Position numbers and translations under genes: made by a program
Notes under the pieces: generated by a model
The model's input: the letters and a program-made list of their open reading frames with translations, nothing else
The model's database searches: none
Told to the model about the DNA's origin: nothing
Shown here: positions 355 to 41,306 of the stretch, piece after piece
Layout: every line of letters begins with the position of its first letter
How positions within the stretch are numbered: the stretch's first letter is position 1
Source: Candidatus Poribacteria bacterium
Lineage (GTDB): Bacteria; Poribacteria; WGA-4E; WGA-3G
Reading direction: 5' to 3'
Length of the DNA: 41,306 bases
Assembly: GCA_022825665.1 (NCBI GenBank)
Contig: JAJDWI010000014.1
Coordinates: 1-41,306, forward strand

Positions 355-1812
355 ATGCAAAATCAACAACCAAATTTACTATATATCCATTCTGATCAAC
401 ATAATCCTTACGTAACCGGATGTTATGGAGACCAATTGGTGCAAACGCCAAATTTGGATAGACTTGCAGCCGAAGGTATCGTATTTGAAAATACCTACTG
501 TCCTTCCCCAATCTGTGTACCATCTCGGATGTCTATGTTGAGTGGACGATACCCGTATGAAAACGAAGTTTGGACAAATAGTCATATTCTTGACTCCGGT
601 ATTCCAACATTTGCACATGCTATGGGTGCTGCTGGGTATGATCCAGTTCTCATTGGCAGAATGCATGCATTAGGACCGGATCAATTACACGGTTATACCG
701 AACGGCTTGTGGGTGATCACGGACCGAACCATCCTGGTGGAGGTGGTGTTGACCACGGTGAATTAAGTGGTACAGCAGGTCCCGCACGAGTAAGTCTACA
801 GAAGTCCGGTGCAGGACAGAGTGCATACCAAGTTCACGATGAGGATGTGACTGCTGCGACTGTTGATTATCTTAACCGTCTCGGTGTTCAGAAACGAGCA
901 GGTTTGCTTGATAAACCATTTTCTATTTCAGTTGGTTTTATGCTTCCGCACCAACCTTTTGTAGCACGTGATATAGATTATCAACTCTATGATGGTCGTA
1001 TGACAATGCCAAAAATCAACGAACCTTTTTCTGATGAATTGCATCCTTATTTTCATTGGTGGCGTGAAAAATGTGGAATAACTGAAGTATCAGAAGATGA
1101 AATTCTTCGCGCACGCACAGCATATTGGGCTTTGGTCACACGGATGGATATTATGATTGGTGACATACTTTCTGCACTCAAGGAAAACGATTTAGATCAG
1201 AATACAATCATACTCTATAGTTCTGATCATGGAGAGCAGGTTGGTGAACATGGACTTTGGTGGAAACAGACATTCTATGAGCACTCCGTGAAAGTTCCAG
1301 CAATTCTCTCGTGGCGCGGTAACTTACCTGAAGGGATCAGGTGTGATAATGTAATCAGTTCACTTGATCTGAACGCAACGATGCTTGATGTACTTGGAGC
1401 ACAACCATTACCAAATTCCCGCGGGAGAAGTGTTTTACCGTTATTGAATGATGAGGATACAGAATGGGATGATATTGCATTTTCTGAATATTGTACTTAT
1501 GATGGATGTTTTCATAGAATGATTAGGTACGAGGATTGGAAGTTAAACTACTATCATGGACAACCATCACAGCTATTTAATCTAAAGGTTGATCCAGATG
1601 AATTACATGACAGATCAAACGATTCAGCCTGTAGAGATGTCTTGGTTGAATTGACTGATATGGTATTGGATGGGTGGAATCCGAATACAATTGCACAACA
1701 GATGGAAGCAAAACAGAAGGATACGCAAGTTCTCGGTAAATGGGCAAGAAACACACAACCTATTGACCTATTTCGATGGAATTTATTACCTGAAATGGAT
1801 TATTTGGATTGA
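355..1812 (+). CDS. Sulfatase (formylglycine-dependent, alkaline phosphatase superfamily)
   Basis: A type I sulfatase of 485 aa that would hydrolyse a sulfate ester on an unknown substrate. Seen: N-terminal metal-site Asp14-Gln15 in HSDQH, the Cys-type maturation motif C54-V-P-S-R58 followed by MSMLSGR, and the second metal-site block SSDHGEQVGEHGLW around residues 289-302 with a following Lys. In this family Cys54 is converted to formylglycine by a sulfatase-modifying enzyme, which is not encoded here. No signal peptide is visible, so a cytoplasmic location is likely, as for choline-sulfatase-like members. The start fits the GGGAG site 5 nt upstream. Downstream lies a MITE, so it is probably monocistronic. 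The substrate cannot be read from sequence. Confidence 0.92.
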   Translation: MQNQQPNLLYIHSDQHNPYVTGCYGDQLVQTPNLDRLAAEGIVFENTYCPSPICVPSRMSMLSGRYPYENEVWTNSHILDSGIPTFAHAMGAAGYDPVLIGRMHALGPDQLHGYTERLVGDHGPNHPGGGGVDHGELSGTAGPARVSLQKSGAGQSAYQVHDEDVTAATVDYLNRLGVQKRAGLLDKPFSISVGFMLPHQPFVARDIDYQLYDGRMTMPKINEPFSDELHPYFHWWREKCGITEVSEDEILRARTAYWALVTRMDIMIGDILSALKENDLDQNTIILYSSDHGEQVGEHGLWWKQTFYEHSVKVPAILSWRGNLPEGIRCDNVISSLDLNATMLDVLGAQPLPNSRGRSVLPLLNDEDTEWDDIAFSEYCTYDGCFHRMIRYEDWKLNYYHGQPSQLFNLKVDPDELHDRSNDSACRDVLVELTDMVLDGWNPNTIAQQMEAKQKDTQVLGKWARNTQPIDLFRWNLLPEMDYLD

Positions 1813-1858
1813 AATAAAAAAGATACTTTAGCATATTTAGGAGCATAATTGTTATAGG

Positions 1859-2148
1859 AACGTGAGTTCGGAATAAGTAACTTACGGAATCGGTTGAATC
1901 CACATCCTAAATTCCGTTGATACTGTTTTATGTAGAACCATCCGAATTTTCAGAGTCATTCTTGACTAAATAGGTCGTAATAGTCCTGTAATACCTTATT
2001 GAATATAAGTTCGTGGCACATGAGAAAATTGTGAAAAATTTCCTCTGACTCTGAAAACTCTGAATCTTTAGAACGTAAGTAATGTAAATATTATCATTTC
2101 AAAGGGTTCCTACTGGCATACAATACTATCATTAATCGAACTCACGTT
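1859..2148. mobile_element. MITE copy A (290 bp, AACGTGAGTTCG terminal repeats)
   Basis: The element starts AACGTGAGTTCG (1859-1870) and ends with its exact reverse complement CGAACTCACGTT (2137-2148). It has no coding capacity. An internal 12-bp inverted repeat, TTTTCAGAGTCA (1947-1958) and TGACTCTGAAAA (2046-2057), lets it fold on itself. A second copy lies in the opposite orientation at 21344-21636 with high similarity over most of its length. The same terminus opens the IS-like element at 41171, so it is probably a non-autonomous derivative. No clear target duplication is visible. The gene fragment to its right begins homology to sigma-WD40 fusions immediately after the element. Confidence 0.85.
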
Positions 2149-2193
2149 ATTGTAAATTCGGTGATGATGATAGATATTGTGGAGGTATTTATT

Positions 2194-5100
2194 ATGAAAA
2201 ATATTGCATTGAAGTCGGATAAACGAAAACAACTTGGAAGTGCTAAGGCACAGAGTAAGAAACCGATTCCTGAACAACCTAATGCCGCGCCACCTCCCGT
2301 TGAAGATGACCCTGCAGAGGGAACAGTGGAAAATTATCCACAATGGGAACTACCGAATGATGTAAAAATGCGCTTGGGAAAAGGTGGTATGAGTGAAATT
2401 CAGTTTTCTCCCGATGGCTCTCAACTCGCAGTACGCAGCACTATCGGTGTGTGGTTATACAATGTGGAAACCTGCAATGAAATTTCCTTATTCCCAGAAA
2501 TAAAGGGAGCATTTGTGTTTTCCGCTGATGGTCGTTTTCTCACAAATGAGGAAGGGGTGTGGGAAATAGCTACAAGACGAAGGGTTTCAAAGCAGAATCC
2601 CCTACTAGATGTTGAAACGGCGTGGTTTTTGAAAGACCGCAAAACATTGGTCAGTTTGGGTGAAGCCAAAGACACAATTAGTATACTGAATATTGAGACC
2701 AGACAGGTGACTACCACTAAAATTGGAGAAAGACCTGGTTATGCGCATCTTGAAGACTATGCCCTAACAGAAGATAAAATCGCCATAGGAAGCAGGAACG
2801 GGTTGCTTGAGTTGTGGGACATCAGCACTGGTAAGAAATTATCTACGCTCAGAAATCCAACGAATAAGAGAGTTCATTTCCGATTGGGAGTAACCCCAGA
2901 TAACCACTCAACATCACTGGCTTTTTCACCTGATGGGACAATACTTGCCAGTGGAAATCTGGATGGAACCGTTCAAATCTGGGATGCTATCACTGGTGAC
3001 GAACTGATTTTATTAAACAAGAAAATGGATAAAATGAAAGGGTTATTCCATTCTCCAGATGGACAATTACACACGCATGAACCATGGGAAAAAGACAATA
3101 TCAGTAGACCAACAACATTAGAATTCTCGCCAGATGGGAAATTACTCGTTATTGGAAATATGAACAGTTCTATTCAAGTGTGGAATGTTACTACAAGTGA
3201 ATTGGTTACTTCTTTTACGGGGCACACCAGTAATGTTAACAGATTAGCTTTTTCACCAGATGGCAACATACTCGCAAGCGGGAGTACAGATGGTACCGTC
3301 CGGTTTTGGAACATTAAGACGAAAGAACCTTATCAAAACGGGATTGCTGGACACGCGTGGGTAAGTAAAGCATCATTCATAAAAAATAATTCCAAACTTG
3401 CAAGTGTTTCGTCGGAGGGAATAGTCACCGTTTGGGATTTGAAAACTTCGCAAAAAACCACTAACAAAACTAAAAAGACTCTGGAAGTTCCGAGGTTTTG
3501 GAATATGTACGTGTCTCTTGAGTTTTCACCCGATGGAACTAATCTCCTCACACAAGGTTTAGAGGATGATTCCTCAAAACCTAACTTTGATAATTTTGTG
3601 CTTAGATTTACTGATGTTAATACGGGTCTTGATGTGAAAACTTTTCCTGAAAGCGATGGTCGGATTTTTTCACCGGATGGAAAAACTGTAGCTGGAAGAG
3701 GCGGGAATAAAATTTACTTATTGAATACGGAAACGGGTGAAAAAAAACAAATAATTACATCAGACCACGATGAAGATTCCGATGAACGTATGCCTCATGT
3801 CAGAGCTATAATATTCTCACCAGATGGGAAACAAATTGTCAGTGGAACAATGGGTGGACATGTACAGATATGGGATGTAGAAACTGGAGATGAGCTAAGT
3901 TCTTACTTTGAAGAGCAGCCTCCGGAAGGTAGTAGTTACCGAGAACCCATCTTAAATCTTGCTTTCTCTTCTGATGGTTCTCTACTTGCTGTGGGAAGTA
4001 CGAAACGGATCCGTTTTATAGGAAGATCGGAACATAAACAGTTTAAGGAAATCACCTATAGTAAAAAAGGATCAGGTGTTGCATTCATCTTCTCCCCTGA
4101 TAATACCACTTTGATTGTTGGCTTACGGGGCGGTAAAATGGAACTATGGAACATATCTACTGGAGATAAACTCACTACGTTTGATAGACACTCTGTATCC
4201 GTTCAAAACTTGATGTTTTCCCCTGATAACAAAACACTTATGAGTGTTGGTATTGGTACAATTCTCCTTTGGGACTGGGAAAAAGTTATTACCAATGCGA
4301 GTAAAGAAGAACAAGATCATGTGTCTGATGGAGATCTTTTGACAAAAGAACAAACTACAGATAATGTGTTGAAATTTGTCGAACATTCATCACCTATAGT
4401 GAAAAGTTCAAGTCATGCTTTGACATTAGCGGAAGTATATCTGGCAAACGAATGGTATGATGAGGCATTAGAACGGTACAAGAGAAACCTATATATTACT
4501 ACCTCAGAAACTTTTCCAACACCGAAAGGGGAATTTAATGTTACATCCTCTCCAAGTTTAGAACGTAAGTTATTCACAGAGATTAACAGAGCCAGAAAAA
4601 ACGTCAAAGATAAAGACGGTTTTGCCAATATGATGAATAAATTGATTGACATTGCACCTGATAGAATGAATATCCAGTTGAATTCACACATAATATTGGC
4701 TAAATTTTATGGTGCAAATGGTATACTTGAGAAGGCAGAGGAGCATATTCAGAAATCTGAATCCATTATTGACAACATTCCCTCCGAAAATATTGAAATC
4801 CGTATATATGGCAACATTGGCGTTGCTGAGTACTATCGCGAAATTGGTATGTTTGAGAAAGTAGAAACTTATATACAAGAAACTGAATCAGTAATAGAAC
4901 ACCTTCCTTCTGACATGCTGCGGACTTATATAAGAGCAAACTTTGCATTAGCTGAATACTATCGGGAGTTTGAGCAGTTTGATAAATCAGAAGTGCATAT
5001 TCGGAAAACTGGGTTTATTACTGAAGACGCTTGGATGGTTCTCGGTCCTTTTGATAATGCAGATGGAATTGGACACGATACGGCATACATTCCTGAAGAC

Positions 5101-5511
5101 ATAACGGAGATTGATTTGGCAACAAAATATGATGGTCTAAATGGAAAAGTGCGTTGGAAACAGCACACTGATACGGAATTAGATGGTTATATCCATCTTG
5201 GAGAGGATAATGTAAATTGGCATGTCTCTTATGCATTCACCACTGTAACCTCTCCCGATGAACGTGAAGTTGAAATCCGATTTGATAGTGACGACCAAGG
5301 AAAAGTATGGTTAAATGGGGAAGAAGTATTTTCACATACCAAAACCTTTATGGCAATAGTTGATACGTACACAATTCCTGTCACCCTCAAACAGGGTAAA
5401 AACAGTATCCTCACTAAGGTGTGTAATGAAAAGGGTGGATGGGCATTTTTTATGCGTATTACTGACTCAGACGGTAACCCCTTTTCTGATTTGAAATTTG
5501 GAAATCCGTAA
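2194..5511 (+). CDS. Double-propeller WD40 protein with TPR-like and C-terminal sandwich domains (beheaded sigma-WD40 fusion)
   Basis: The protein is 1105 aa. The start at 2194 is chosen because GGAGGT (2181-2186) lies 7 nt upstream; the frame is open back to a GTG at 2161. Residues 1-45 match, without gaps, the post-membrane linker of the two sigma-WD40 fusions at 21760 and 24869 (LGSAKAQ versus VGSANAQ), and the similarity runs upstream of the start to the MITE edge. About 14 WD40 blades follow (residues 50-700), then a helical TPR-like region (740-940, YDEAL, KAEEH, AEYYRE) and a beta-sandwich-like end opening with WMVLGPFDN (945-1105) that resembles carbohydrate-binding or PA14-like modules. 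There is no signal peptide or membrane span, unlike its relatives, so it should be cytoplasmic if made. The role is unknown; the frame is intact. Confidence 0.85.
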   Translation: MKNIALKSDKRKQLGSAKAQSKKPIPEQPNAAPPPVEDDPAEGTVENYPQWELPNDVKMRLGKGGMSEIQFSPDGSQLAVRSTIGVWLYNVETCNEISLFPEIKGAFVFSADGRFLTNEEGVWEIATRRRVSKQNPLLDVETAWFLKDRKTLVSLGEAKDTISILNIETRQVTTTKIGERPGYAHLEDYALTEDKIAIGSRNGLLELWDISTGKKLSTLRNPTNKRVHFRLGVTPDNHSTSLAFSPDGTILASGNLDGTVQIWDAITGDELILLNKKMDKMKGLFHSPDGQLHTHEPWEKDNISRPTTLEFSPDGKLLVIGNMNSSIQVWNVTTSELVTSFTGHTSNVNRLAFSPDGNILASGSTDGTVRFWNIKTKEPYQNGIAGHAWVSKASFIKNNSKLASVSSEGIVTVWDLKTSQKTTNKTKKTLEVPRFWNMYVSLEFSPDGTNLLTQGLEDDSSKPNFDNFVLRFTDVNTGLDVKTFPESDGRIFSPDGKTVAGRGGNKIYLLNTETGEKKQIITSDHDEDSDERMPHVRAIIFSPDGKQIVSGTMGGHVQIWDVETGDELSSYFEEQPPEGSSYREPILNLAFSSDGSLLAVGSTKRIRFIGRSEHKQFKEITYSKKGSGVAFIFSPDNTTLIVGLRGGKMELWNISTGDKLTTFDRHSVSVQNLMFSPDNKTLMSVGIGTILLWDWEKVITNASKEEQDHVSDGDLLTKEQTTDNVLKFVEHSSPIVKSSSHALTLAEVYLANEWYDEALERYKRNLYITTSETFPTPKGEFNVTSSPSLERKLFTEINRARKNVKDKDGFANMMNKLIDIAPDRMNIQLNSHIILAKFYGANGILEKAEEHIQKSESIIDNIPSENIEIRIYGNIGVAEYYREIGMFEKVETYIQETESVIEHLPSDMLRTYIRANFALAEYYREFEQFDKSEVHIRKTGFITEDAWMVLGPFDNADGIGHDTAYIPEDITEIDLATKYDGLNGKVRWKQHTDTELDGYIHLGEDNVNWHVSYAFTTVTSPDEREVEIRFDSDDQGKVWLNGEEVFSHTKTFMAIVDTYTIPVTLKQGKNSILTKVCNEKGGWAFFMRITDSDGNPFSDLKFGNP

Positions 5512-5573: not shown

Positions 5574-6431
5574 ATGGCAAACAGTCCGATTTTAAGCGGT
5601 GAACCTTTTAGTCAAGAGAAAACACATGAACTTGCTGAGCAGTTTTTCCGTGATGGGTTTGTATATATACCGGGGGTGCTGACTCCTGAAGAGGTTACAG
5701 CACTACGAGACAAAACGGATGCGTTTTTTGATGATCCAGAACTTGCAGAAAGAACTAACCCTCACCTTGCAGATGTACGCTATATTCAAATGGGTTCACA
5801 TGCTAATTCTGGAGAAACACTTCCTTTTATTCTTCGGAATACCATTGAACTTGATCCAATCTTTCGGGATATGCTGCTTCGTGAACCGATATTGAGTTTA
5901 GCTGAAGCTATAGTAGGTGAGAATTGCAAGTTTTGTGGTCAAAATGTCCTCCGTAATCTACCGGGCTTATCCATAAGTAGTTGGCATGTGGATGGTTCAA
6001 TACACTTTCCGGTAAGCGATGAAATGCCACGACATGACCCGCGTCTAAGAATGCCTGTGATGTGGTTTACTGTGCAGATGGCACTCAGCGATATTGACAC
6101 ACTTGAAGAAGGACCGACACAATATGTCCGCGGTAGCCATTATTCTGGTAGAGGACCAAACACACAGGAAAACCCAGAATTTGAAGGGAATAAACCTGTT
6201 TCTATCTTCTGTAAAGCAGGGGATATATACCTGCAAGACCCACAGTGTTGGCATCGTGGTGCTCCTAACGTGTCAAACAAAACACGTTATATCTTACAAT
6301 CTCAGTATGCAGCATATTGGGCATACTGGCGGTTCAACTTGTGTAATGGTGTTCCTGTTCCAGAGGATGCCCTCCAAACAGCAGATGACCGCTTACTAAG
6401 TCTCTTAGGACGCAGCCGTCCAAGCGAATAA
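5574..6431 (+). CDS. Phytanoyl-CoA dioxygenase (PhyH) family protein
   Basis: A 285-aa Fe(II)/2-oxoglutarate-dependent oxygenase of the PhyH family. Seen: the iron triad candidates His138-x-Asp140 (SSWHVDGS) and distal His227 (CWHRGAPN), with Arg228 and Arg238 near the expected 2-oxoglutarate carboxylate position. The family hydroxylates varied substrates, so the acceptor is unknown. The start follows AGGAG in ATAGGAGATATAGT. It lies 62 bp after the WD40 gene and 23 bp before the amidase, so PhyH and amidase probably share a transcript and may act in one degradation route. It is one of three divergent PhyH paralogues in the window. Confidence 0.9.
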   Translation: MANSPILSGEPFSQEKTHELAEQFFRDGFVYIPGVLTPEEVTALRDKTDAFFDDPELAERTNPHLADVRYIQMGSHANSGETLPFILRNTIELDPIFRDMLLREPILSLAEAIVGENCKFCGQNVLRNLPGLSISSWHVDGSIHFPVSDEMPRHDPRLRMPVMWFTVQMALSDIDTLEEGPTQYVRGSHYSGRGPNTQENPEFEGNKPVSIFCKAGDIYLQDPQCWHRGAPNVSNKTRYILQSQYAAYWAYWRFNLCNGVPVPEDALQTADDRLLSLLGRSRPSE

Positions 6432-10099: not shown

Positions 10100-11224
10100 T
10101 TAAGAAGACTTCTGGTATCCTAGTTTTCCCTCGGCTTTATCTGATTTCCACTTATTAACGTATTCAAGATCATGTTTTTCCAATCTATTCAAACAATTCT
10201 TTTCTACAATACTCATTTCACTTGTTACGTGCTTTGCAAGAATCTCTTTGATAGAATCTGGTTCACCTAATTTATCAAAATAAACAGCGAGTTTACTTAA
10301 TAAATTTGATTCTCGGTGTGTAACTACAAAAACAGGTAATGCCATCTTTAGTAGTGATAAAGAATCAGACAATTCCAATTTAAGACTCATGTCCGCGAGT
10401 GAAAGAGCAGTATAGGTTAGGAACCAAGTCTTACATTTTGGATCCTCTTTAAGTAGGCGGTTAAGGAATTTTTTGAGTCCTTGATATGCTTCTTGTTTAT
10501 ATGTTTCTCCAATAAGATAAATAAAATCACGTCCATTAGATATCACCTCAGATCTACTTTCAAAGGCAACAAGTTTATTTATAAATTCTAACAAAATTGA
10601 GATTATATCAGGATAGTCCCTATCCAGTAGTAAAAATGCTGCCTTATATCGAAGTTCAAGAGGTAGGAATTCGTCATTAAATACTTCAAAAAGGACATCA
10701 TCTGATAATATCTCGGTTTGTTTACTTGAAGAAGGATTATATAGTAATTCAAAGTGATCAAAATGCTTTAGAAAAGTTGTGGCATGACCTTTATGTAACA
10801 ACTTTATCTGGTTTTTTATTTCATCTAACTGAGCTACTGCCTCTTTAAACCCGTTCAAGTTTTTTTCAACTCTATCTGCTATCAGTGATTTAACCACAAA
10901 CCACAAAGCCAATCCAATAACCGCAAATATTACTCCAAAAAATCCAACCCATCCCCACATCCATTTCTGATTTGAATCCCTTAATTCCCTTTCAAACCTA
11001 CCAAAATCGGCATTTAAAAGTTTAGTATTTGCCTCAGCGAGTTTTGTTATTAACTCCATTTTCTCAATATTTTCTACAGTCTTAAGTTTGGATTGGAGAT
11101 CCGAGAACTGTTTCTTGAGAGACTTAATTTCCTGCTCTTGCGTGTTTTGATTCTGCTGTGCAAATACTGGAGAAACAATAATTGAGATTACTGTTATTAG
11201 AAAGAAGGCAGTATATTTACTCAT
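10100..11224 (-). CDS. Membrane-anchored coiled-coil/helical protein coupled to hicAB
   Basis: An unrecognised protein of 374 aa. The start is ATG 11224, whose A overlaps the hicB stop (TGATG), so translation is probably coupled; a TTG codon lies just before. Seen: an N-terminal signal-like segment (FFLITVISIIVSPVFAQ), a Gln/Lys-rich coiled coil (residues about 25-85), a second strong membrane span (WMWGWVGFFGVIFAVIGLALWFVV, about 88-111) and a long helical C-terminal half resembling HEAT or TPR-like helices without clear repeats. Position as a third gene of a toxin-antitoxin operon is unusual. It may be an unrelated passenger or a membrane partner of the system. No function is assigned. Confidence 0.8.
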   Translation of the reverse strand: MSKYTAFFLITVISIIVSPVFAQQNQNTQEQEIKSLKKQFSDLQSKLKTVENIEKMELITKLAEANTKLLNADFGRFERELRDSNQKWMWGWVGFFGVIFAVIGLALWFVVKSLIADRVEKNLNGFKEAVAQLDEIKNQIKLLHKGHATTFLKHFDHFELLYNPSSSKQTEILSDDVLFEVFNDEFLPLELRYKAAFLLLDRDYPDIISILLEFINKLVAFESRSEVISNGRDFIYLIGETYKQEAYQGLKKFLNRLLKEDPKCKTWFLTYTALSLADMSLKLELSDSLSLLKMALPVFVVTHRESNLLSKLAVYFDKLGEPDSIKEILAKHVTSEMSIVEKNCLNRLEKHDLEYVNKWKSDKAEGKLGYQKSS

Positions 11225-11592
11225 CAATTTGTATCTTCTTTAATAATAGGTATAGAAGGTTTTAACTTCTGGGCAACAAGTGCAAAAAGACTTATTCCAG
11301 TTTTCGCCGCTTCGTCTGTCAGTGCATGATAAATATTTTCATCAACAGGTACATTGTAAGGTCCTGAATATCCTTGTCGAGAAGATGCTTTAGGGATTGG
11401 TTCACCATCCTTCTGGTAACATTCTTTCATCAATTCCCATGCAGTTTTTAACTCGGACAATGCTTCGGCAGGTGTTGGTCCAAAAGCCGAAACATTAGGG
11501 AGTTCCACAAGATGTGCAAGATAGTCGCCATCTTCATCATAAAATACATTGATCATGAAACCATCAAAATCGTCGTGGTTATTCTTCTTCAT
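11224..11592 (-). CDS. hicB: HicB-family antitoxin
   Basis: 122 aa from ATG 11592; a longer frame exists upstream but it runs through hicA. The N-terminal half (FMINVFYDEDGDYLAHLVELPN, then SAFGPTPAEALSELKTAWELM) is the HicB partial RNase-H-like fold. The C-terminus (PVDENIYHALTDEAAKTGIS) looks like a ribbon-helix-helix DNA-binding segment. HicB binds and inhibits the mRNA-cleaving HicA and usually represses its own operon. It overlaps the end of hicA by 14 bp, and its stop overlaps the start of the next gene by one base, giving a tight three-gene unit. Confidence 0.88.
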   Translation of the reverse strand: MKKNNHDDFDGFMINVFYDEDGDYLAHLVELPNVSAFGPTPAEALSELKTAWELMKECYQKDGEPIPKASSRQGYSGPYNVPVDENIYHALTDEAAKTGISLFALVAQKLKPSIPIIKEDTN

Positions 11593-11827
11593 CTGCTTCC
11601 TCCTGATTATACTGTTTGAGAAATTGTCGAACTTGATAACCCTTTGCCATAGATCGGTCTGGTTGTATGATAAGACGGTATCCGATAGGTGAGTACCAAG
11701 TTCTATGGCTACCTCGCTGACGAAGCTGCATCCAACCGCATTGTCGTAATAGTTGTTCAAAATCTCTAAATTTCAATCCATTTGCATTTCGTCGTGCTTT
11801 ACCAAGCAAGACATCTCTTCGATTCAT
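11579..11827 (-). CDS. hicA: HicA-family mRNA interferase toxin
   Basis: 82 aa from ATG 11827; TTG 11839 in the same frame is an alternative start, and neither has a strong ribosome binding site. The fold is a small double-stranded-RNA-binding-like domain: KFRDFEQLLRQCGWMQLRQRGSHR with the catalytic-type His41 in GSH. HicA proteins cleave mRNA independently of ribosomes until bound by HicB. Gene order toxin-antitoxin and the 14-bp overlap are typical. The C-terminus is acidic (EEADEEE) and slightly longer than the minimal family. Confidence 0.88.
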   Translation of the reverse strand: MNRRDVLLGKARRNANGLKFRDFEQLLRQCGWMQLRQRGSHRTWYSPIGYRLIIQPDRSMAKGYQVRQFLKQYNQEEADEEE

Positions 11828-11933
11828 ATTTTTATTCAAATGATTGACGTAAATGACCCAATTGCCCAGAAAAAATTCTACTTTTTGATTTTAGGTTAAA
11901 TTCATTGTCTTTTCAAACTATATAAATCCCAGA

Positions 11934-12848
11934 CTATCCAACTGCATAATCGTCAGGATTGTTTTTACGCCAATTTGGGAGGTAGCCCTCTGAGTGACCA
12001 AATCCGTAGGAAGGTCCAATCTGGTTTGGACTGGACCAGGGCCAAGCTTGTCCTCCAATGAGACGAAACTCATCACTCTTTCCACATAACCAATAGAACA
12101 TGTGTGCCACATACCGTGCTACACCGTGTCCACCATAAGATGCAGTCTGAAAATCAAAATCCGGTTCTTGTATCCAGTCCCTCACCGGAGGAACTGTTCG
12201 CCAATAACTGTATTTCAACATGTGTCGCAAACCAGTTGCTGTCGATTCCCCACGTCGATGCATGATGCTCTGGGAATGTATCACGAATGAACCTGCTGGA
12301 CCATCGCTTGAAAACCCTTTCTCAGATATGTCTCGACTTTTAGGTGAGACATGTGAACTGGGTAGAAGCTCTGTGGGTCCCATTTCCAACGGTGTGTCTT
12401 GTGGAAAGTAGAATACCTCAACGAAATTGGTTTCAGGACCAAAAACGTGATCAGCATCGTAATGCCAAGGTTGTGGTTCCATTGGACATTCAACCCGATG
12501 ATTGCTAACCAAAACAGGTAGACCAACATTTTTCCCTAACAGTGAACGCAACGCGCCAGCGAGTTCTCGATTGAGTAGCACCTGCTCAATATACCAGTCC
12601 TCAAGCATAATGGAACTCGGTTCGTGTGTATCACGCATACGTTCTAAATCAGCATGTGTCATACCTTCAGGAATATATACAGGATTAATAGGAAGTTCTC
12701 CGTTTAGATATTGACATGTGCGTTGGTTAATTTCGTCTGGAACAACGCCCTGAAGTTGTAGGAATCCATCATGGCAATACGTTAATATCTGTAAATCGGT
12801 TAGCGTAGGTTCACAATCAAACGTTCTATTTGTTTTATCGTATTTCAT
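11934..12848 (-). CDS. Phytanoyl-CoA dioxygenase (PhyH) family protein
   Basis: A 304-aa Fe(II)/2-oxoglutarate oxygenase. Iron ligands are visible as His129-x-Asp131 (QPWHYDADHVFG) and His197 (SIMHRRGES), with Arg198 or a later Arg for 2-oxoglutarate. The C-terminal stretch after residue 230 is Trp/Tyr/Gly-rich and longer than in the other two PhyH proteins here. The start has GAGGT 8 nt upstream. It lies 25 bp after glcD on the same strand, so the two oxidative enzymes probably share a transcript. Substrate unknown. Confidence 0.88.
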   Translation of the reverse strand: MKYDKTNRTFDCEPTLTDLQILTYCHDGFLQLQGVVPDEINQRTCQYLNGELPINPVYIPEGMTHADLERMRDTHEPSSIMLEDWYIEQVLLNRELAGALRSLLGKNVGLPVLVSNHRVECPMEPQPWHYDADHVFGPETNFVEVFYFPQDTPLEMGPTELLPSSHVSPKSRDISEKGFSSDGPAGSFVIHSQSIMHRRGESTATGLRHMLKYSYWRTVPPVRDWIQEPDFDFQTASYGGHGVARYVAHMFYWLCGKSDEFRLIGGQAWPWSSPNQIGPSYGFGHSEGYLPNWRKNNPDDYAVG

Positions 12849-12873
12849 ACTGATAACCTCAGTTCAATTGGAA

Positions 12874-14307
12874 TTAGTCGTTGCTCATAGAGGGTGGTTG
12901 CATTCCGAGTTTTTCGTATGATTCTGCTGTTGGGAAGATTTTTCCGGGATTGCATAGTCCTGTTGGATTGAAGATGTCTTTGACATTAGCCATTACCTTC
13001 ATATCTTCAGGACTAAAGATAAGGGGCATATAATCCATTTTTTCAACACCGATGCCATGCTCTCCAGTGATTGTCCCGCCGACTTCTGCACACACCGTTA
13101 AGATTTCTTTGTTTACATGTTCTACGCGTTCACACTGATCTGCATCACGTTCATCAAATAGGACTATAGGATGTATATTTCCGTCACCTGCATGGAATAC
13201 ATTTGCAATGGCGATCTGATATTTTTCTGATATTTCAGAGATACGGCGTAATACTCTTGGTAACCGAGTTCGCGGAACTACTCCGTCTTGTGTGATATAA
13301 TTTGGTGCAAGTCTACCGAAAGAACCGAAGGCACTTTTGCGTGCTTTCCATAATTCTTGTCGTTCTGCATCATCTTTAGCATAATTTACTTCACGCGCAT
13401 TGTGCTGTTTGAAGATTTCGAGTATCTTATCTGTTTGGTTTTGCATGCCCGCTTCAATTCCGTCAAGTTCGACGATAAGTATTGCTTCGGCATCAAGAGG
13501 AAAACCGAATTGGAACGCATCCTCCAGGGCACGGATGACAAGTGTATCCATCATTTCAAGTGCAGCAGGTATAATACCTGCTCCTATAATTGTTGACACA
13601 GCATTTGATGCATCGTCCATTTTGTCAAAAACTGCGAGTGCGGTCTGATATGCTTGTGGATTTCGGGTTAATCGGACGGTGGCTTTTGTTACGATCCCGA
13701 ATGTGCCTTCAGAACCGATTAGAACGCCACGTAGATCGTAACCCAGGACTTCCTCAACTTCTCCACCGAATTCAATAATTTCACCATCTGGCATAACGAC
13801 TTCTAAACCTAACACATGATCCGAAGTGACTCCATATTTTAGTGTGTGAGGACCACCAGAGTTTTCTGCGATATTTCCACCGATTGTGCATGCTTTCTGA
13901 CTTGATGGGTCAGGGGCATAGTGGTATCCTTGACTCTGCACTGCTTGAGATAAAAGAAGATTGACGACCCCAGGTTCTACTACTGCACGCTCGTTTTCAA
14001 TGTCTATTTCAAGGATACGATCCATACGGTTAAGTGCGATGATAATTCCACCTTGTACTGAAAGCATCCCTCCGCTCAATCCAGTTCCCCCACCACGAGC
14101 GATAAACGGTGTATTATATCTGTTTGCTAATTTGACAATATCAGAAACTTGTTGTGTGGTGTCAGCAAACACAACAACGTCTGGTAATGCTTTAAATGAC
14201 GGAGCTGCATCGCATTCGTATACAGACAATGCTGTTGGGTCTGTTAGGACATTTCTTGAACCAAGTAGTTCTGAGAGTTCTGCAATGAGTTCTTCTTTCT
14301 TGTCCAT
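12874..14307 (-). CDS. FAD-linked oxidase, GlcD/D-lactate dehydrogenase type
   Basis: 477 aa from ATG 14307, chosen because AAGGAA lies 7 nt upstream; an ATG at 14325 would place that site inside the gene. N-terminal PCMH-type FAD-binding domain: VVVFADTTQQVSDIV, then the FAD loop IARGGGTGLSGGM and the Val/Ile-rich VEPGVVN. The C-terminal vanillyl-alcohol-oxidase-like half contains GDGNIHP and GEHGIGVEKM, which line the 2-hydroxyacid site. The family oxidises glycolate, D-lactate or related 2-hydroxyacids. No glcE or glcF is adjacent, so D-lactate or D-2-hydroxyglutarate are as plausible as glycolate. Likely operon with the following phyH. Confidence 0.9.
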   Translation of the reverse strand: MDKKEELIAELSELLGSRNVLTDPTALSVYECDAAPSFKALPDVVVFADTTQQVSDIVKLANRYNTPFIARGGGTGLSGGMLSVQGGIIIALNRMDRILEIDIENERAVVEPGVVNLLLSQAVQSQGYHYAPDPSSQKACTIGGNIAENSGGPHTLKYGVTSDHVLGLEVVMPDGEIIEFGGEVEEVLGYDLRGVLIGSEGTFGIVTKATVRLTRNPQAYQTALAVFDKMDDASNAVSTIIGAGIIPAALEMMDTLVIRALEDAFQFGFPLDAEAILIVELDGIEAGMQNQTDKILEIFKQHNAREVNYAKDDAERQELWKARKSAFGSFGRLAPNYITQDGVVPRTRLPRVLRRISEISEKYQIAIANVFHAGDGNIHPIVLFDERDADQCERVEHVNKEILTVCAEVGGTITGEHGIGVEKMDYMPLIFSPEDMKVMANVKDIFNPTGLCNPGKIFPTAESYEKLGMQPPSMSND

Positions 14308-14571: not shown

Positions 14572-15213
14572 ATGCCAGCAACAAATAAGAATTTGGAGTT
14601 AATATCTGCCGATGAATTAGAATTAATTGATGACTATGATTTGGTAAGTCGTTTTCAAAATGGTGATACAGAAGCGTTTAATACCCTCGTACTAAAATAT
14701 CAGAACCGTATTGCGAAACTAATTTACAGACATATACATGACGCAGAAACCACAAAAGATCTATGCCAAGAAGTTTTCTTGAAAGTCTACAAATCTTTAT
14801 CAAAATTTAAAGGAAATTCTGCCTTTTATAGTTGGTTATACAGGATTGCAATGAATTCATGCATTGACTATATTCGTCAACAAAACAGAAGAAAAACTGT
14901 CGGAATAGATGATTTAGAGGGAAGTACGGAGGAGTTTTTACTGATTAGCAAGCAGCCATCTCCATCTCACCTAATTGAGATGGAGGAACTTGGTGACATA
15001 ATTGATAAAGCGGTAAATCAACTGCCTCCAAAGCAACAACAAGTATTCAGACTTCGTTATGAAAAGAAACTACAGATTAAAGAGGTTGCAGTTCTCATCA
15101 ATCGGTCAGAAGGAACAGTAAAAACACATTTGCATCATGCACATCGACGTTTACGTGAATTGTTACGTCCATATTTAGAGAATCGTCCGTTAGATTGGGA
15201 TGATGAAATCTAA
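14572..15213 (+). CDS. ECF-type RNA polymerase sigma factor
   Basis: 213 aa. Sigma2 spans about residues 25-100 (FNTLVLKYQNRIAKLIYRH, DLCQEVFLKVYKSL, FYSWLYRIAMNSCIDYIRQ) and sigma4 about 145-205 (LPPKQQQVFRLRY, IKEVAVLINRSEGTVKTHL). It has no sigma3, as expected for ECF factors. GGAG lies ahead of the start. No anti-sigma gene is adjacent; the next gene on the strand is an exported WD40 protein whose relatives downstream are fused to ECF sigma domains, so that protein is a candidate partner. A strong terminator separates the two, so they are not simply one transcript. Confidence 0.95.
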   Translation: MPATNKNLELISADELELIDDYDLVSRFQNGDTEAFNTLVLKYQNRIAKLIYRHIHDAETTKDLCQEVFLKVYKSLSKFKGNSAFYSWLYRIAMNSCIDYIRQQNRRKTVGIDDLEGSTEEFLLISKQPSPSHLIEMEELGDIIDKAVNQLPPKQQQVFRLRYEKKLQIKEVAVLINRSEGTVKTHLHHAHRRLRELLRPYLENRPLDWDDEI

Positions 15214-15244
15214 ATGATTTGTTAGGTAACTAATTTATCAGAAC

Positions 15245-15272
15245 AAGCGGGTCTCTGTGACCCGCTTTTTTT
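15245..15272 (+). terminator. Rho-independent terminator after the ECF sigma gene
   Basis: A perfect 9-bp stem, AAGCGGGTC (15245-15253) and GACCCGCTT (15259-15267), closes a 5-nt loop and runs into a T tract ending at 15272. It lies 31 bp after the sigma factor stop. Confidence 0.92.
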
Positions 15273-15470
15273 GTTCGGAATTTACAGGATAACGGTCTAT
15301 TGTATTTCAATTAATTCCCGCATATACTTTTAATGCAACCATATTACCCGATTCTATGTCATAATATAATGTAGATAGTACTTTCATAATAGATCCATGA
15401 TATAAATTTATAGGATAAACAGACACATTATAAAATAGTACCAATGACTGCAGAACTTCAGGAGTCAGAT

Positions 15471-17429
15471 ATGCATAAAAGACAATATTTAATATTTACA
15501 ATCATGTTATTGACCTGCATATTTTCATCAAACAGTATTGCTCAGGAATATACTCAATGGCATCTACCAGAGGGTGCGACTGTGCGTCTTGGAAAAGGGA
15601 GTATAAATGACATTAAGTTTTCATCTGATGATACACGCTTTGCAGTAGCAACCACGATTGGTGTGTGGATATATGATGCACAGACTGGAGAGGAAATATC
15701 ACTCATTAAAGTTAACTTTCGTAGTCCGTTAACTATCCACAGAGTAGCCTTTTCTCCAGATAGCAAAATACTGGCTACAGGTAATTGGGTTTTAGGTGGA
15801 GATATTGAATTGTGGGATGTGAAGTCGGGAGAAAAAATCCGTACGTTAAGAGAAAAAATCGGTAGAGTATATCATTTAAGATTTTCACATGATGGAAGGA
15901 TATTATCCTGCGGAAGTTGGAATAGAAGTGTCCAATTTCATGTATGGGAAGTTGATACGGGACGTGAGATAGCCTTTTTTACTGGAGAACAAAACGGATA
16001 TAGCAATTTTCAGGTTTCACAAGATTCCAGTTTAATTGCAACTGATGGAGAAAGAAAGATTTTGATCTGGGATACATTTGAGGGAAAACTTCGACACGCT
16101 ATTGATTTTCCGATTGGTTTTGTCTCAGGATTTGCATTTTCTCCTGATAACAAAATGCTTGTAAGTAGTGGGAGAAGTTCCACAATTTGGGATACAGAAA
16201 CTGGTAGTAAAATATTAAAGTTGTATGATAATGAATATAGAGCCAGTGAAATGACCTTTTCTCCTAACGGTGAAATCCTTGCTGGAGGAGGTAGTGATGG
16301 AAGTATTATATTGTGGGATATTAATCGAATTCTTGAAAAACATAAGGAGCAAAAGACCTCACTTTCATCATTATTAGATAAAATCACCAATAAAGAATCT
16401 TCAAATAAAGAGCATAAAACCTTTCCTGGACATACAAGTGTTGTTAATACAATAATATATAACAGTAATGGGAATACGCTTGCAAGTGGAAGCAGGGACG
16501 GGACAATTATAGTATGGGACGTTGCAACCATGCAGAAGCGATTTACTATACACGGACATACAGGTCCAATGACGATTTTGCGTTATGATGAAATTGGACA
16601 GAAACTATTCAGTGGATCTGCTAACGAATCAGTGTGGGTATGGGATAAAGATTCTATGACTTCGCAATTAATAAAACCAAACTGGAATACATACCCTATT
16701 GTCTTCTCGCATGATGGAAAAACAGCGGCTAACAGAAGTCGAAAAAATGAACTACAGATATGGGACATTGAAACAGATCAACGTCTTTTTACCATCAGGA
16801 ATGAAAAACAGGAGATATTTTCAAAATTAGCATTATCCCCAGACAGCAAACTCCTTGCGAGTGGCAGTCGAGATGGATCATTGGAAATGTGGGATATTGT
16901 TAACCGTAAACATTTTATGACCCTTGATAAACATACAAATCGGGTCAACGCTATACTTTTCTCTCCTGATGGAACACTGTTGGCAAGTGCAAGCGAGGAT
17001 GGTACAGTTCAATTGTGGCAGATTCAGACAGGAGAAAAGAAAGTACTGCAGACTGAACCAAATAGAGGTGTCAGAGCATTGACATTTTCCCCTGACAGTA
17101 AAACACTTGTTAGTGGTCGCTGGGACGGACCTATTCAGAATTGGGATACGGTAACTTTTCAACACCTTGGGGATTATATTAACGCGGCTGGTACTGTTGA
17201 CTCATTAGAATTCTCACCGGATGGAAAAATACTTGCCAATGGATTATACGGTTTGATCCGTCTATGGGATGTGGAAACCAAGACGAAGATTAAGGAAATA
17301 TATAGGGCACATAACAATAGCGTGACGAAATTCGTCTTTTCTTCTGATAGTAAAACACTTGTTAGTGGAAGTAGTGATGGAACATCACTTATTTGGGATT
17401 TAGAGAAAATGGGAATTGGAAATAGGTAA
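15471..17429 (+). CDS. Exported double-propeller WD40 protein
   Basis: 652 aa from ATG 15471, with AGGAG 6 nt upstream; an earlier ATG at 15444 lacks a site and would spoil the signal peptide. Residues 1-24 form a signal peptide (QYLIFTIMLLTCIFSSNSIAQ), followed at once by the entry module YTQWHLP...VRLGKG...IGVWIYD shared with the sigma-WD40 fusions. I count 14 SPDG-type blades to the C-terminus, i.e. two seven-bladed propellers and nothing else. Being exported, it supports an extracytoplasmic location for the propellers of the fusions. It follows an ECF sigma gene; a role as a soluble or periplasmic sensing partner is inference. Confidence 0.88.
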   Translation: MHKRQYLIFTIMLLTCIFSSNSIAQEYTQWHLPEGATVRLGKGSINDIKFSSDDTRFAVATTIGVWIYDAQTGEEISLIKVNFRSPLTIHRVAFSPDSKILATGNWVLGGDIELWDVKSGEKIRTLREKIGRVYHLRFSHDGRILSCGSWNRSVQFHVWEVDTGREIAFFTGEQNGYSNFQVSQDSSLIATDGERKILIWDTFEGKLRHAIDFPIGFVSGFAFSPDNKMLVSSGRSSTIWDTETGSKILKLYDNEYRASEMTFSPNGEILAGGGSDGSIILWDINRILEKHKEQKTSLSSLLDKITNKESSNKEHKTFPGHTSVVNTIIYNSNGNTLASGSRDGTIIVWDVATMQKRFTIHGHTGPMTILRYDEIGQKLFSGSANESVWVWDKDSMTSQLIKPNWNTYPIVFSHDGKTAANRSRKNELQIWDIETDQRLFTIRNEKQEIFSKLALSPDSKLLASGSRDGSLEMWDIVNRKHFMTLDKHTNRVNAILFSPDGTLLASASEDGTVQLWQIQTGEKKVLQTEPNRGVRALTFSPDSKTLVSGRWDGPIQNWDTVTFQHLGDYINAAGTVDSLEFSPDGKILANGLYGLIRLWDVETKTKIKEIYRAHNNSVTKFVFSSDSKTLVSGSSDGTSLIWDLEKMGIGNR

Positions 17430-21343: not shown

Positions 21344-21637
21344 AACGTGAGTTCGATTGATGAGTAGTATTGTGTGACAGAATGAGAGCCCTTTTATTTT
21401 ATCATATTTACATTACTGCCGTTCTATGGATTCAGAGTTTTCAGAGTCAGAGGGAAATTTGCACATAATTTTCATGTGCCACAAATCTATATTTAGTAAG
21501 GCTTTACAGGGCTATTATGACCTATTTAGTCAAGAATGACTCTGAAAATTCGGATTATTTTACCAAAGACAATGACAACGGAATTTAGAATATGAATTCA
21601 ACCGATTCCAAAAGTTACTTATCCCGAATTCACGTTT
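21344..21637. mobile_element. MITE copy B (about 293 bp, inverted relative to copy A)
   Basis: The left end AACGTGAGTTCG (21344-21355) and right end CGAATTCACGTT (21625-21636, one mismatch) are terminal inverted repeats. TATAAT at 21338-21343 and again at 21638-21643 looks like a 6-bp target duplication. The internal inverted repeat TTTTCAGAGTCA (21438-21449) / TGACTCTGAAAA (21537-21548) matches copy A, as does most of the remaining sequence read on the opposite strand. It inserted directly behind the PP-loop gene stop. Confidence 0.88.
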
Positions 21638-21759: not shown

Positions 21760-24744
21760 ATGAAAAACAATGACACGCAACTAATTCACAGTATACTTGA
21801 TGGCAATGATGCGGCTTTTGAGGAACTTGTGAAGAAATATCAGAAACAGGTTCATGCACTTGTGTGGCGTAAAATTGGTGATTTCCATATAGCTGAAGAA
21901 ATTACACAAGATACTTTTCTTAAGGCTTACCAAAAACTCGGAACGTTGAAGCAACCGCGGCGTTTTTCAAGCTGGCTTTATGTGATTGCAGCGAACCGAT
22001 GCAGGACGTGGATGCGTAATAAGTATTTGCGGAAAAAATTGATTGAGGACAAAGATGTTACACAACATGAAAAAGCAACATATTCCGAGTATGTGCATTC
22101 AGAAAACGAACGTATTACTGCAGAAACCCAACGGGATGTCGTAAAGAGATTACTTGAGAAACTTGAGGAGAGTGAACGCACTGTCATAACGTTGTATTAC
22201 TTTGGAGAGATGTCGTGTCCAGAAATAGGTGAATTCTTAGGTGTATCTTCCAATACTGTAAAAAGTCGACTTCACCGCGCAAAACAGCGACTACAAAAGG
22301 AAGAAGTCATTATAAGAGAGGCGTTAGACAATTTCCAAATTTCACCGTATCTGACAGAAAACATCATGCATGAGATTTCGCGTATGAATCCTGCAACACC
22401 GTCCAATGGAAAACCCGTAGTACCATGGGTAGCTACTGCTTCTACGTTAGTAGTTGTGATACTAATATTTGGATTTGGAAATAGCAGATATTTGACCCGT
22501 TTTCAAGAACCTTATAGTTTAGATGCCAATGCAGAGATGACGGTTGATATTATAGATGCCCCCATAGTTGCAAACTTTGAATCTAAACCAGATATACGAA
22601 CTCAAGTTGGAAGTGCAAATGCGCAGGATGTAATCAATAAACCTAAACAGTTACCTAATGATTCAGATGTAAAAGTTGGAGAGGTGCAATCTGATGAAAT
22701 AGCAAGTGATTATACACAATGGGAATTGCCTAAAGCAGCGAAAGCACGTCTTGGAAAAGGGGGAATTAATGTACTACAATATTCACCTGACGGTTCCAAA
22801 TTTGCAGTAGGGAGTAATATAGGTATGTGGATTTACGATGTGAAAACAGGAAAAGAAGTGACAATGTTCCCTGGTATGTGTCAATCCATAGCATTTTCTC
22901 ATGATGGACGATTCCTTGTTAATGGTGGTGGTAGGTATGGGTCAGGTGGTAAATTTAGAGGAACCGAACTTACACTTTGGGAAGTAGCTACTGGTCAGAG
23001 AGTGTCTCTCACTGGCGACTATCTACCTGCATCTGAATTGCTGTTTTCTAAAGACGGTAAAACCCTTATCAGTTTAGGAAATTGGGGTGACTCAATTAAC
23101 CAGTTGGATATTGAGACCAAAAATGGAAATATGAAGATGATCGAAGAACGATCTTGGGAAAAGATAAAGAGAAGAAGTCTTCCTGAACCCTATGCGCTGA
23201 CATACGATAAATTTGCAGTCGGTCTAAAAGGAGGAAAGATTGAGTTATGGGACACGGCTACCGGTGAAAACTTATCCACCCTCAACGGACAGATATATAA
23301 GCTTTCCACCTTCAGAAGACTCTCAAAACGACTGTTTGGTGATAAACAAGAACCCAGGCATTTGAGGGAGGAAGAACACATATTAGCTTTGGAATTTTCA
23401 CCTGATGGTGGACAACTTGCTATTGGGAGTAATGATACAATTGCATTATTATGGAATACCAACAGCAATGATGAACCAATCACACTCCGTAAGCATACAG
23501 GTTGGATTAACGCATTAGCATTTTCGCAAGATGGACAAATGCTTGCAAGCGGGAGTACTGATAAGACTATACAGTTATGGGATACTACCACAGGTGAGTA
23601 TATCAGAACTTTCACAGGACACAACAAAAGTATTAGTGCCTTAACTTTTTCACCGGATGGCACAACGCTTGCCAGTGGAAGTGCAGACGGTACGATAAAA
23701 TTCTGGAATGTAGAAACTGGTCATACATTACCAACTCATCTTACAGGACATACAGAATGGATGAAAGCAATAGCATTCATTGAAGATAACAACACACTTG
23801 CTTCTGTGTCAGTAAATGGTATTATTTTTTTATGGAATCTGAAAACAATGCTGAAATCTGAGATCCAAACGAAAAGAAATCAGGACTTTTTATCTGGATT
23901 AGCTTTTTCATCTGATGGAACTAAGCTTATAAGTTTAAGTGCAGATGGAGATATATTTTTTAATAAAAGTGTTGCAACCTATTTTGGCAATACAAGACCA
24001 GATGGGTTGTTACGTTTGACTGATGTTCAGACAAGACGTGAGTTGGCAAGCTTGGTGACAGGAGGTATGCTTGATGCCACTGCTTTTTCACCTGATGGTA
24101 AAACTGTAGCCTTCGGCAGTTTCGGAAAAGTTAGTGTTTGGAATACGGAAACAGGAGCAGTTATCAATAACCCACTATCAGATAAAGTTCAGTTAGATAA
24201 AAACGGTGTTTTGATATTTCCACCTGGAGTTATCCTCGACGACATACTTCCACTCCGTATGATACGTGCTTTGGTGTTCTCACCAGATGGAGAGAAACTT
24301 GTCAGTGGATCTGACCAAGGACATGTTGAGATGTGGTCAGTGGAAACTGGCACTGTGATAACTACGCTATCAGCTCAGACTCAGCGGGAATCTATTGCAG
24401 CATTGTCTTTCTCTTCAAATGGACTTCTTCTTGCCATAGGAAGTAATAAAGGAATACGAGTGATGGGAGGTAGTAAACTGACTCTCCTGAGAGAATTTAG
24501 CAGTAGTGTTGAATCATTAGTTTTTGCGCCAGATAGTACTGTCCTTGTTGCTGGAATAAGGAACGGTGGAATTGAAATATGGGATGTTGAATCTGGGGAC
24601 AAACTCACCACACTTGATGGACATTCAGAACCAGTTGAGACGTTAATATTCTCTCCCGATGGTAAAACACTTGTCAGTACGGGGCAAGATGGCACAATAC
24701 TTATATGGGATTGGAATGAAATTCTCAAGGATTCTGAACAATAG
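21760..24744 (+). CDS. ECF sigma factor - transmembrane - double WD40 propeller fusion (copy 1)
   Basis: 994 aa. Sigma2 about residues 15-90 (FEELVKKYQKQVHALVW, AEEITQDTFLKAYQKL, FSSWLYVIAANRCRTW); sigma4 about 130-185 (LEESERTVITLYYFGE, CPEIGEFLGVSSNTVKSRL). A conserved amphipathic stretch leads to one membrane span (VVPWVATASTLVVVILIFGFG, 220-240), then a linker to about 318 and the module YTQWELP...GKG with about 14 WD40 blades to the C-terminus. The predicted topology puts sigma in the cytoplasm and the propellers outside, so release by proteolysis or conformational change would be needed for transcription; this is inference. GGAGGT precedes the start. It is tandem with a paralogue 124 bp downstream. 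Confidence 0.9.
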   Translation: MKNNDTQLIHSILDGNDAAFEELVKKYQKQVHALVWRKIGDFHIAEEITQDTFLKAYQKLGTLKQPRRFSSWLYVIAANRCRTWMRNKYLRKKLIEDKDVTQHEKATYSEYVHSENERITAETQRDVVKRLLEKLEESERTVITLYYFGEMSCPEIGEFLGVSSNTVKSRLHRAKQRLQKEEVIIREALDNFQISPYLTENIMHEISRMNPATPSNGKPVVPWVATASTLVVVILIFGFGNSRYLTRFQEPYSLDANAEMTVDIIDAPIVANFESKPDIRTQVGSANAQDVINKPKQLPNDSDVKVGEVQSDEIASDYTQWELPKAAKARLGKGGINVLQYSPDGSKFAVGSNIGMWIYDVKTGKEVTMFPGMCQSIAFSHDGRFLVNGGGRYGSGGKFRGTELTLWEVATGQRVSLTGDYLPASELLFSKDGKTLISLGNWGDSINQLDIETKNGNMKMIEERSWEKIKRRSLPEPYALTYDKFAVGLKGGKIELWDTATGENLSTLNGQIYKLSTFRRLSKRLFGDKQEPRHLREEEHILALEFSPDGGQLAIGSNDTIALLWNTNSNDEPITLRKHTGWINALAFSQDGQMLASGSTDKTIQLWDTTTGEYIRTFTGHNKSISALTFSPDGTTLASGSADGTIKFWNVETGHTLPTHLTGHTEWMKAIAFIEDNNTLASVSVNGIIFLWNLKTMLKSEIQTKRNQDFLSGLAFSSDGTKLISLSADGDIFFNKSVATYFGNTRPDGLLRLTDVQTRRELASLVTGGMLDATAFSPDGKTVAFGSFGKVSVWNTETGAVINNPLSDKVQLDKNGVLIFPPGVILDDILPLRMIRALVFSPDGEKLVSGSDQGHVEMWSVETGTVITTLSAQTQRESIAALSFSSNGLLLAIGSNKGIRVMGGSKLTLLREFSSSVESLVFAPDSTVLVAGIRNGGIEIWDVESGDKLTTLDGHSEPVETLIFSPDGKTLVSTGQDGTILIWDWNEILKDSEQ

Positions 24745-41170: not shown

Positions 41171-41306
41171 AACGTGAGTTCGGAAATAAATAAGTGTATG
41201 ATTTAAGAGAACCCCTTTGATATAATGAAGTAATTACACCTTCAGTAAAAGGAGTTCTCCGATGGCTATTGTATCACTTTTCTGTGAAATTCACGACTTT
41301 TTTATT
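41171..41306 (+). mobile_element. Left end of an insertion sequence (cut by window edge)
   Basis: It begins AACGTGAGTTCGGAAATAA, the same terminus as the left end of MITE copy A (AACGTGAGTTCGGAATAAG). After about 90 bp comes a transposase-like start. The right end lies outside the window. It is a plausible autonomous parent of the two 290-bp MITEs. Confidence 0.75.
41262..41306 (+). CDS. Transposase, N-terminal fragment (truncated by window)
   Basis: ATG 41262 with AAAAGGAG (41247-41254) 7 nt upstream; a TATAAT -10-like box lies at 41221-41226. The 15 visible residues, MAIVSLFCEIHDFFI, resemble the start of DDE transposases of the IS982/IS4 type, but that is too short for firm assignment. 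The matching terminal repeat supports an IS transposase. Confidence 0.6.
   Translation, partial: MAIVSLFCEIHDFFI

Follow-up and report, generated by a model that had tools for sequence, protein, structure and literature searches.

We regard the gene at 2194-5511, with high confidence, as an old descendant of a sigma-TM-WD40-TPR fusion which was truncated at its 5' end and retained a decayed leader, and in front of which a MITE was inserted later, in this lineage only. The stretch of DNA analysed (the window, 41,306 nucleotides) is contig C111 of genome G000, which comprises 4.53 Mb and 170 contigs. Orthologues were searched for in 59 genomes of the family together with the named genomes, and every named relative that the protein search brought up was a Candidatus Poribacteria MAG. 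A previous, sequence-only reading had derived the gene from a membrane sigma-receptor fusion that had lost its sigma and membrane parts, and this derivation is supported by the results reported below; the same reading had held the MITE responsible for the loss. The features concerned are collected in Table 1. An Rfam search of the window returned 0 matches.

Table 1. Features of the window discussed in the text (positions count from the first nucleotide of the window).
Feature	Position	Strand	Remarks
Sulfatase-like gene, upstream of the MITE	355-1812	+	Almost adjacent to PhyH in seven related genomes, which lack a WD40 gene at this site
Short left flank of the MITE	1813-1858	+	Perhaps a remnant of decayed parental linker (suggestive only)
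MITE, 290 bp	1859-2148	+	12-bp terminal inverted repeats; not at the locus in 5/5 orthologues
Leader of former linker codons	2149-2193	+	Contains the GGAGGT ribosome-binding site
Headless WD40-TPR-sandwich gene, 1105 aa	2194-5511	+	Under purifying selection; without sigma domain, signal peptide or membrane helix
PhyH-like dioxygenase gene, downstream	5574-6431	+	Marks where the insertion between sulfatase and PhyH ends on the right
Paralogue with head: ECF sigma, membrane helix, linker, WD40	21760-24744	+	No TPR; outgroup
Second sigma-TM-linker-WD40 paralogue	24869-27661	+	Tandem to the 21760 gene

The reading frame at 2194-5511 is intact and stays open for 1105 codons downstream of its start, as had been claimed. 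In its product, numerous WD40 repeats are accompanied by a TPR region and, at the C-terminus, by a sandwich domain. The latter matched the sugar-binding domain of glycosyl hydrolase family 2 weakly (E 6e-4, below the curated cut-off), and no significant structural relative of it was found among solved structures. When the product and its five orthologues were submitted to domain search, sigma-70 regions 2 and 4 were absent, and hydropathy analysis revealed neither a hydrophobic helix nor a signal peptide in the six headless proteins, which agrees with the reported absence of the sigma and membrane parts. The WD40 part is 50-57% identical over its full length to sigma-bearing WD40-TPR relatives, with which it falls into one common tree. 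Pairwise dN/dS values among the headless genes ranged from 0.20 to 0.34 (six pairs), compared with 0.23-0.24 for a sigma-bearing pair; because of these values, the remnant is shown to be maintained by purifying selection. On the basis of its domain content, the headless protein would be a cytoplasmic WD40-TPR binding scaffold, presumably expressed with the sulfatase-PhyH-amidase array. In the comparison of 2194-5511 with its G014 counterpart (L043), dS was 0.53 in the second WD40 part and 0.13-0.16 in the TPR and sandwich regions, an unevenness which suggests recombination or gene conversion.

In order of decreasing protein identity to the window gene, the orthologues belong to G014 (84%), G012 (79%), G017 (75%), G018 (69%) and G010 (68%). 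The succession sulfatase, headless gene, PhyH, amidase and SMP30 was found in 6/6 loci, followed by Gfo in 5/6. No sigma domain was present at any of the six headless loci and no MITE at the locus in any of the five orthologues; the MITE insertion at this locus is confined to the window genome. Related loci with an intact sigma-TM head and no MITE had been anticipated, and the orthologous loci are instead all headless. Three of the five orthologues (G014, G012, G017) start at the same methionine as the window gene, and those of G010 and G018 start further downstream, at MENYPQW. Only in G000 and G014 is the MITE family itself abundant; G018 and G010 yielded a few weak or short matches, and no copy was detectable anywhere in the G012 and G017 genomes. 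The sister genome G014 is full of MITE copies, yet has none at the headless-gene locus.

The proposal that the MITE itself cut the sigma and membrane parts off a fusion resident in the window genome has become extremely improbable. It would account for the MITE ending 45 bp before the start codon, and for a linker homology that is readily visible only downstream of the element. However, the same truncation occurs in the same gene order in the MITE-free orthologues, two of which (G012 and G017) belong to the genomes lacking detectable copies, and the homology of the G014 leader to the linker extends beyond the MITE junction. Since MITE-free orthologues without sigma domains share the start methionine, the kind of orthologue named beforehand as evidence against it, beheading by the MITE is refuted. 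The truncation of a gene need not have been caused by the mobile element found at its apparent edge.

The DNA around the start codon bears on the origin of the leader. As previously noticed, this region aligns with the linker of the fusions: window positions ~2155-2252 are 71% identical over 98 nt to the linker DNA of a sigma-bearing G018 fusion (E 8e-14), 66% identical to the linker of the window's own 21760 fusion (E 5e-9) and 59% identical to that of the 24869 fusion (E 0.002). Against the same G018 linker DNA, the leaders of G014 and G012 gave 68% (E 1e-11) and 69% (E 1e-10), respectively. In G010 and G018, the relic of the linker starts within a few bases of the sulfatase stop and contains stop codons (E 3e-20 and 5e-16). 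The start methionine of the window gene aligns with a linker methionine of the sigma-bearing genes of G010, G018 and G019 (for G018, EAPVMANLALKSDERRQLG against EVFIMKNIALKSDKRKQLG). Upstream of it, the ribosome-binding site GGAGGT lies at 2182-2187, and its GGAGG is conserved in the window, G014, G012 and G017. The linker alignment confirms that this site falls in former coding codons (GTG GAG GTA), and it is supported that both the start codon and the ribosome-binding site correspond to re-used linker codons, as judged from the aligned sequences.

The linker homology had been thought to end exactly at the MITE, which was not confirmed. In G014 it extends upstream past the position that the MITE occupies in the window and crosses an in-frame stop (NTN*EMTIDIVEVFI against DANAEMTVDIIDAPI), and in G012 it reaches about -90. 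When the MITE was left out, the flanks in the window aligned continuously with the parental linker, and 0/2000 shuffles reached the score (L050 and L049 as parents). The left flank alone is no more than suggestive: 42/3000 shuffles and 3/1227 genomic 46-mers aligned as well. Because the flanks align as one run and the G014 homology passes the MITE point, the MITE probably inserted into a linker relic that had decayed before. The G017 leader (-60 to -1) showed no detectable homology to the parental linker (360/500 shuffles were as good), and the match became significant once the first codons were included. Nothing of the sigma or membrane coding part was recognised in the leaders. The DNA downstream of the stop did not lead to the donor copy either, as the window gene and its sigma-bearing relatives have no DNA in common 3' of the stop; in this comparison, short weak matches were obtained only in G012, G010 and G018.

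A tree of the WD40-TPR part united the six headless genes in one clade (support 100/100); by this topology, the headless state is a single older event common to the six genomes. The headless clade is sister to all other WD40-TPR members, a position which would also be expected if the headless protein were ancestral and the sigma-TM head had been gained later in other lineages. This order of events is improbable, as the outgroups (the 21760 and 24869 genes and one G012 gene) all possess sigma and helix, albeit on long branches, and as the stop-containing, linker-homologous DNA in front of the headless start fits a loss and not a gain.

The sulfatase and PhyH genes are separated by only 49-237 bp, with no WD40 gene, in G005, G011, G019, G006, G016, G020 and G008. 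In G015 (L098, G015:C75), the gap measures 714 bp and contains another short insert with two short frames, which by eye resemble a toxin-antitoxin pair. In the simplest reading of these sites, a 5'-truncated copy entered the sulfatase-PhyH array. Occupied and empty sites are interleaved in the locus tree (4 changes), and therefore a single gain would have to be followed by several losses or by transfer. Furthermore, G012 is placed with G017 by the headless tree and with G020 by the locus tree, a discordance that hints at transfer or conversion. We lean towards a copy that was already truncated when it came to the locus; that it came whole and lost its head in place is a serious, if tentative, possibility.

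In the account that we favour, that of an old loss followed by a late insertion, a 5'-truncated copy of a sigma-TM-linker-WD40-TPR-sandwich gene lay between sulfatase and PhyH, in an operon-like array, before the six genomes diverged. Translation would be initiated at the internal linker methionine and would use a ribosome-binding site that also consists of former linker codons; four genomes have conserved the two. What remained of the linker became a non-coding leader, decaying in each lineage in its own way by stop codons, indels, deletions or, here, a MITE. The latter, of the IS982 type, entered the leader only in the window lineage, after its split from G014. With sigma-bearing relatives, a decayed leader, a re-used start codon and empty sites, the locus offers an evolutionary series in which the repeated loss of a sigma output by a receptor-like family can be studied.

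The paralogues within the window illustrate the arrangement with a head. The sigma domains PF04542 and PF08281 were recognised in 21760-24744 and an ECF model matched 24869-27661; in each of the two, an ECF sigma part is accompanied by a helix at about residue 220. At 14572-17429, in addition, the window has an ECF sigma gene that stands alone and, after it, a WD40 gene (15444) with a signal-peptide-like start, a pair which has the form of a split sigma-WD40 arrangement.

Loss of the head was also observed outside the six genomes. At L052 (G016:C61, reverse-complement 10858-13779), a sigma stub that ends after about 60 residues is followed by a redoxin/thioredoxin-type gene of 830 aa and then by a headless WD40-TPR gene, whose sister in the tree is a sigma-bearing gene of G006, so that this loss is independent. 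Two further clades, identified by tree and hydropathy, have kept the helix and lost sigma. In two sigma-less members, L051 (G012) and L038 (G020), the retained helix is followed by NAFAQ or DAFAQ, which by eye look like signal-peptidase sites; in these, the helix may act as a cleavable signal peptide and the WD40 part may be exported. We give even chances to the general reading that the head was lost repeatedly (in the six-genome clade, independently in G016, and in at least two clades which lost sigma but kept the helix), with WD40-TPR as the functional core and sigma as a detachable output.

ECF57 sigma factors, with an example from Singulisphaera, carry WD40-like C-terminal extensions, and WD40 extensions of ECF sigma factors have been described as putative protein-interaction regulators (PMC8999054). 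ECF57 proper is marked by a sigma sequence particular to the group and by paired cysteines. By comparison with the description of ECF57 (PMC8999054), the 21760 and 24869 genes and the relatives in G010, G018 and G019 likewise consist of an ECF sigma part followed by WD40. Unlike ECF57, they have a membrane helix between sigma and WD40, some members add TPR and sandwich, and the 2194-5511 gene is without any sigma part. WD40 and TPR proteins are abundant in sponge-associated Poribacteria (PMC3909097); the main text of that survey mentions neither sigma factors nor a link to truncated sigma fusions. No paper that treats Poribacteria together with ECF sigma factors came up in a search of the literature.

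The MITE is real, as had been proposed. It spans exactly 1859-2148, with ends AACGTGAGTTCG/CGAACTCACGTT, and has 41 matches in its own genome, the best other copies being 90-96% identical. Its 12-bp end AACGTGARTTCG (one ambiguous base) occurs 60 times in the genome, compared with 0 for the reversed control. In its make-up it is a MITE: short, non-coding, multi-copy (about 40 copies) and bounded by terminal inverted repeats. The same 12-bp ends flank a 1-kb element (G000:C128:6026-7037) with a 299-aa transposase between them, which matched the IS982 model NF033520 with an E value of 4e-71, above the curated cut-off. Because these shared ends enclose an IS982-model transposase, the MITE very probably derives from, and is moved by, the C128 IS982-family element. 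Candidate target repeats of 5-6 bp were seen at some copies (ATATTT at L090, ATAGT at L005), and inspection of the flanks showed no clean target-site duplication at the 1859-2148 copy. A MITE in the genome of a Cardinium endosymbiont, which surfaced in the IS982/MITE literature (PMC9769881), would likewise be a short non-coding repeat with terminal inverted repeats. The likeness is one of description and the host is another; the window MITE has its terminal inverted repeats in common with an IS982-family transposase element of the same genome, and the absence of a clean target-site duplication belongs to the window copy.

Compatible with the favoured account of an old truncation and a late insertion, the MITE might separate the gene from the sulfatase and now supply a new promoter. 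It lies between two co-oriented genes and contains a promoter-like site (TTTAGA, 16 nt, TATTAT) at 2067-2094. However, the number of promoter-like sites, five, does not differ significantly from the 2.4 (sd 1.6) expected by shuffling, and a promoter function seems rather unlikely.

A second MITE copy was observed at 21344-21636 of the window, 83% identical and on the opposite strand, about 120 bp upstream of the 21760 gene. Finally, the contig ends inside a copy of an IS982-type element (41171-41306), of which the end AACGTGAGTTCGG and the very start of the transposase gene are present. Since several other contigs also stop 120-185 bp from the end of such an element, the IS982-type repeat probably broke the assembly.
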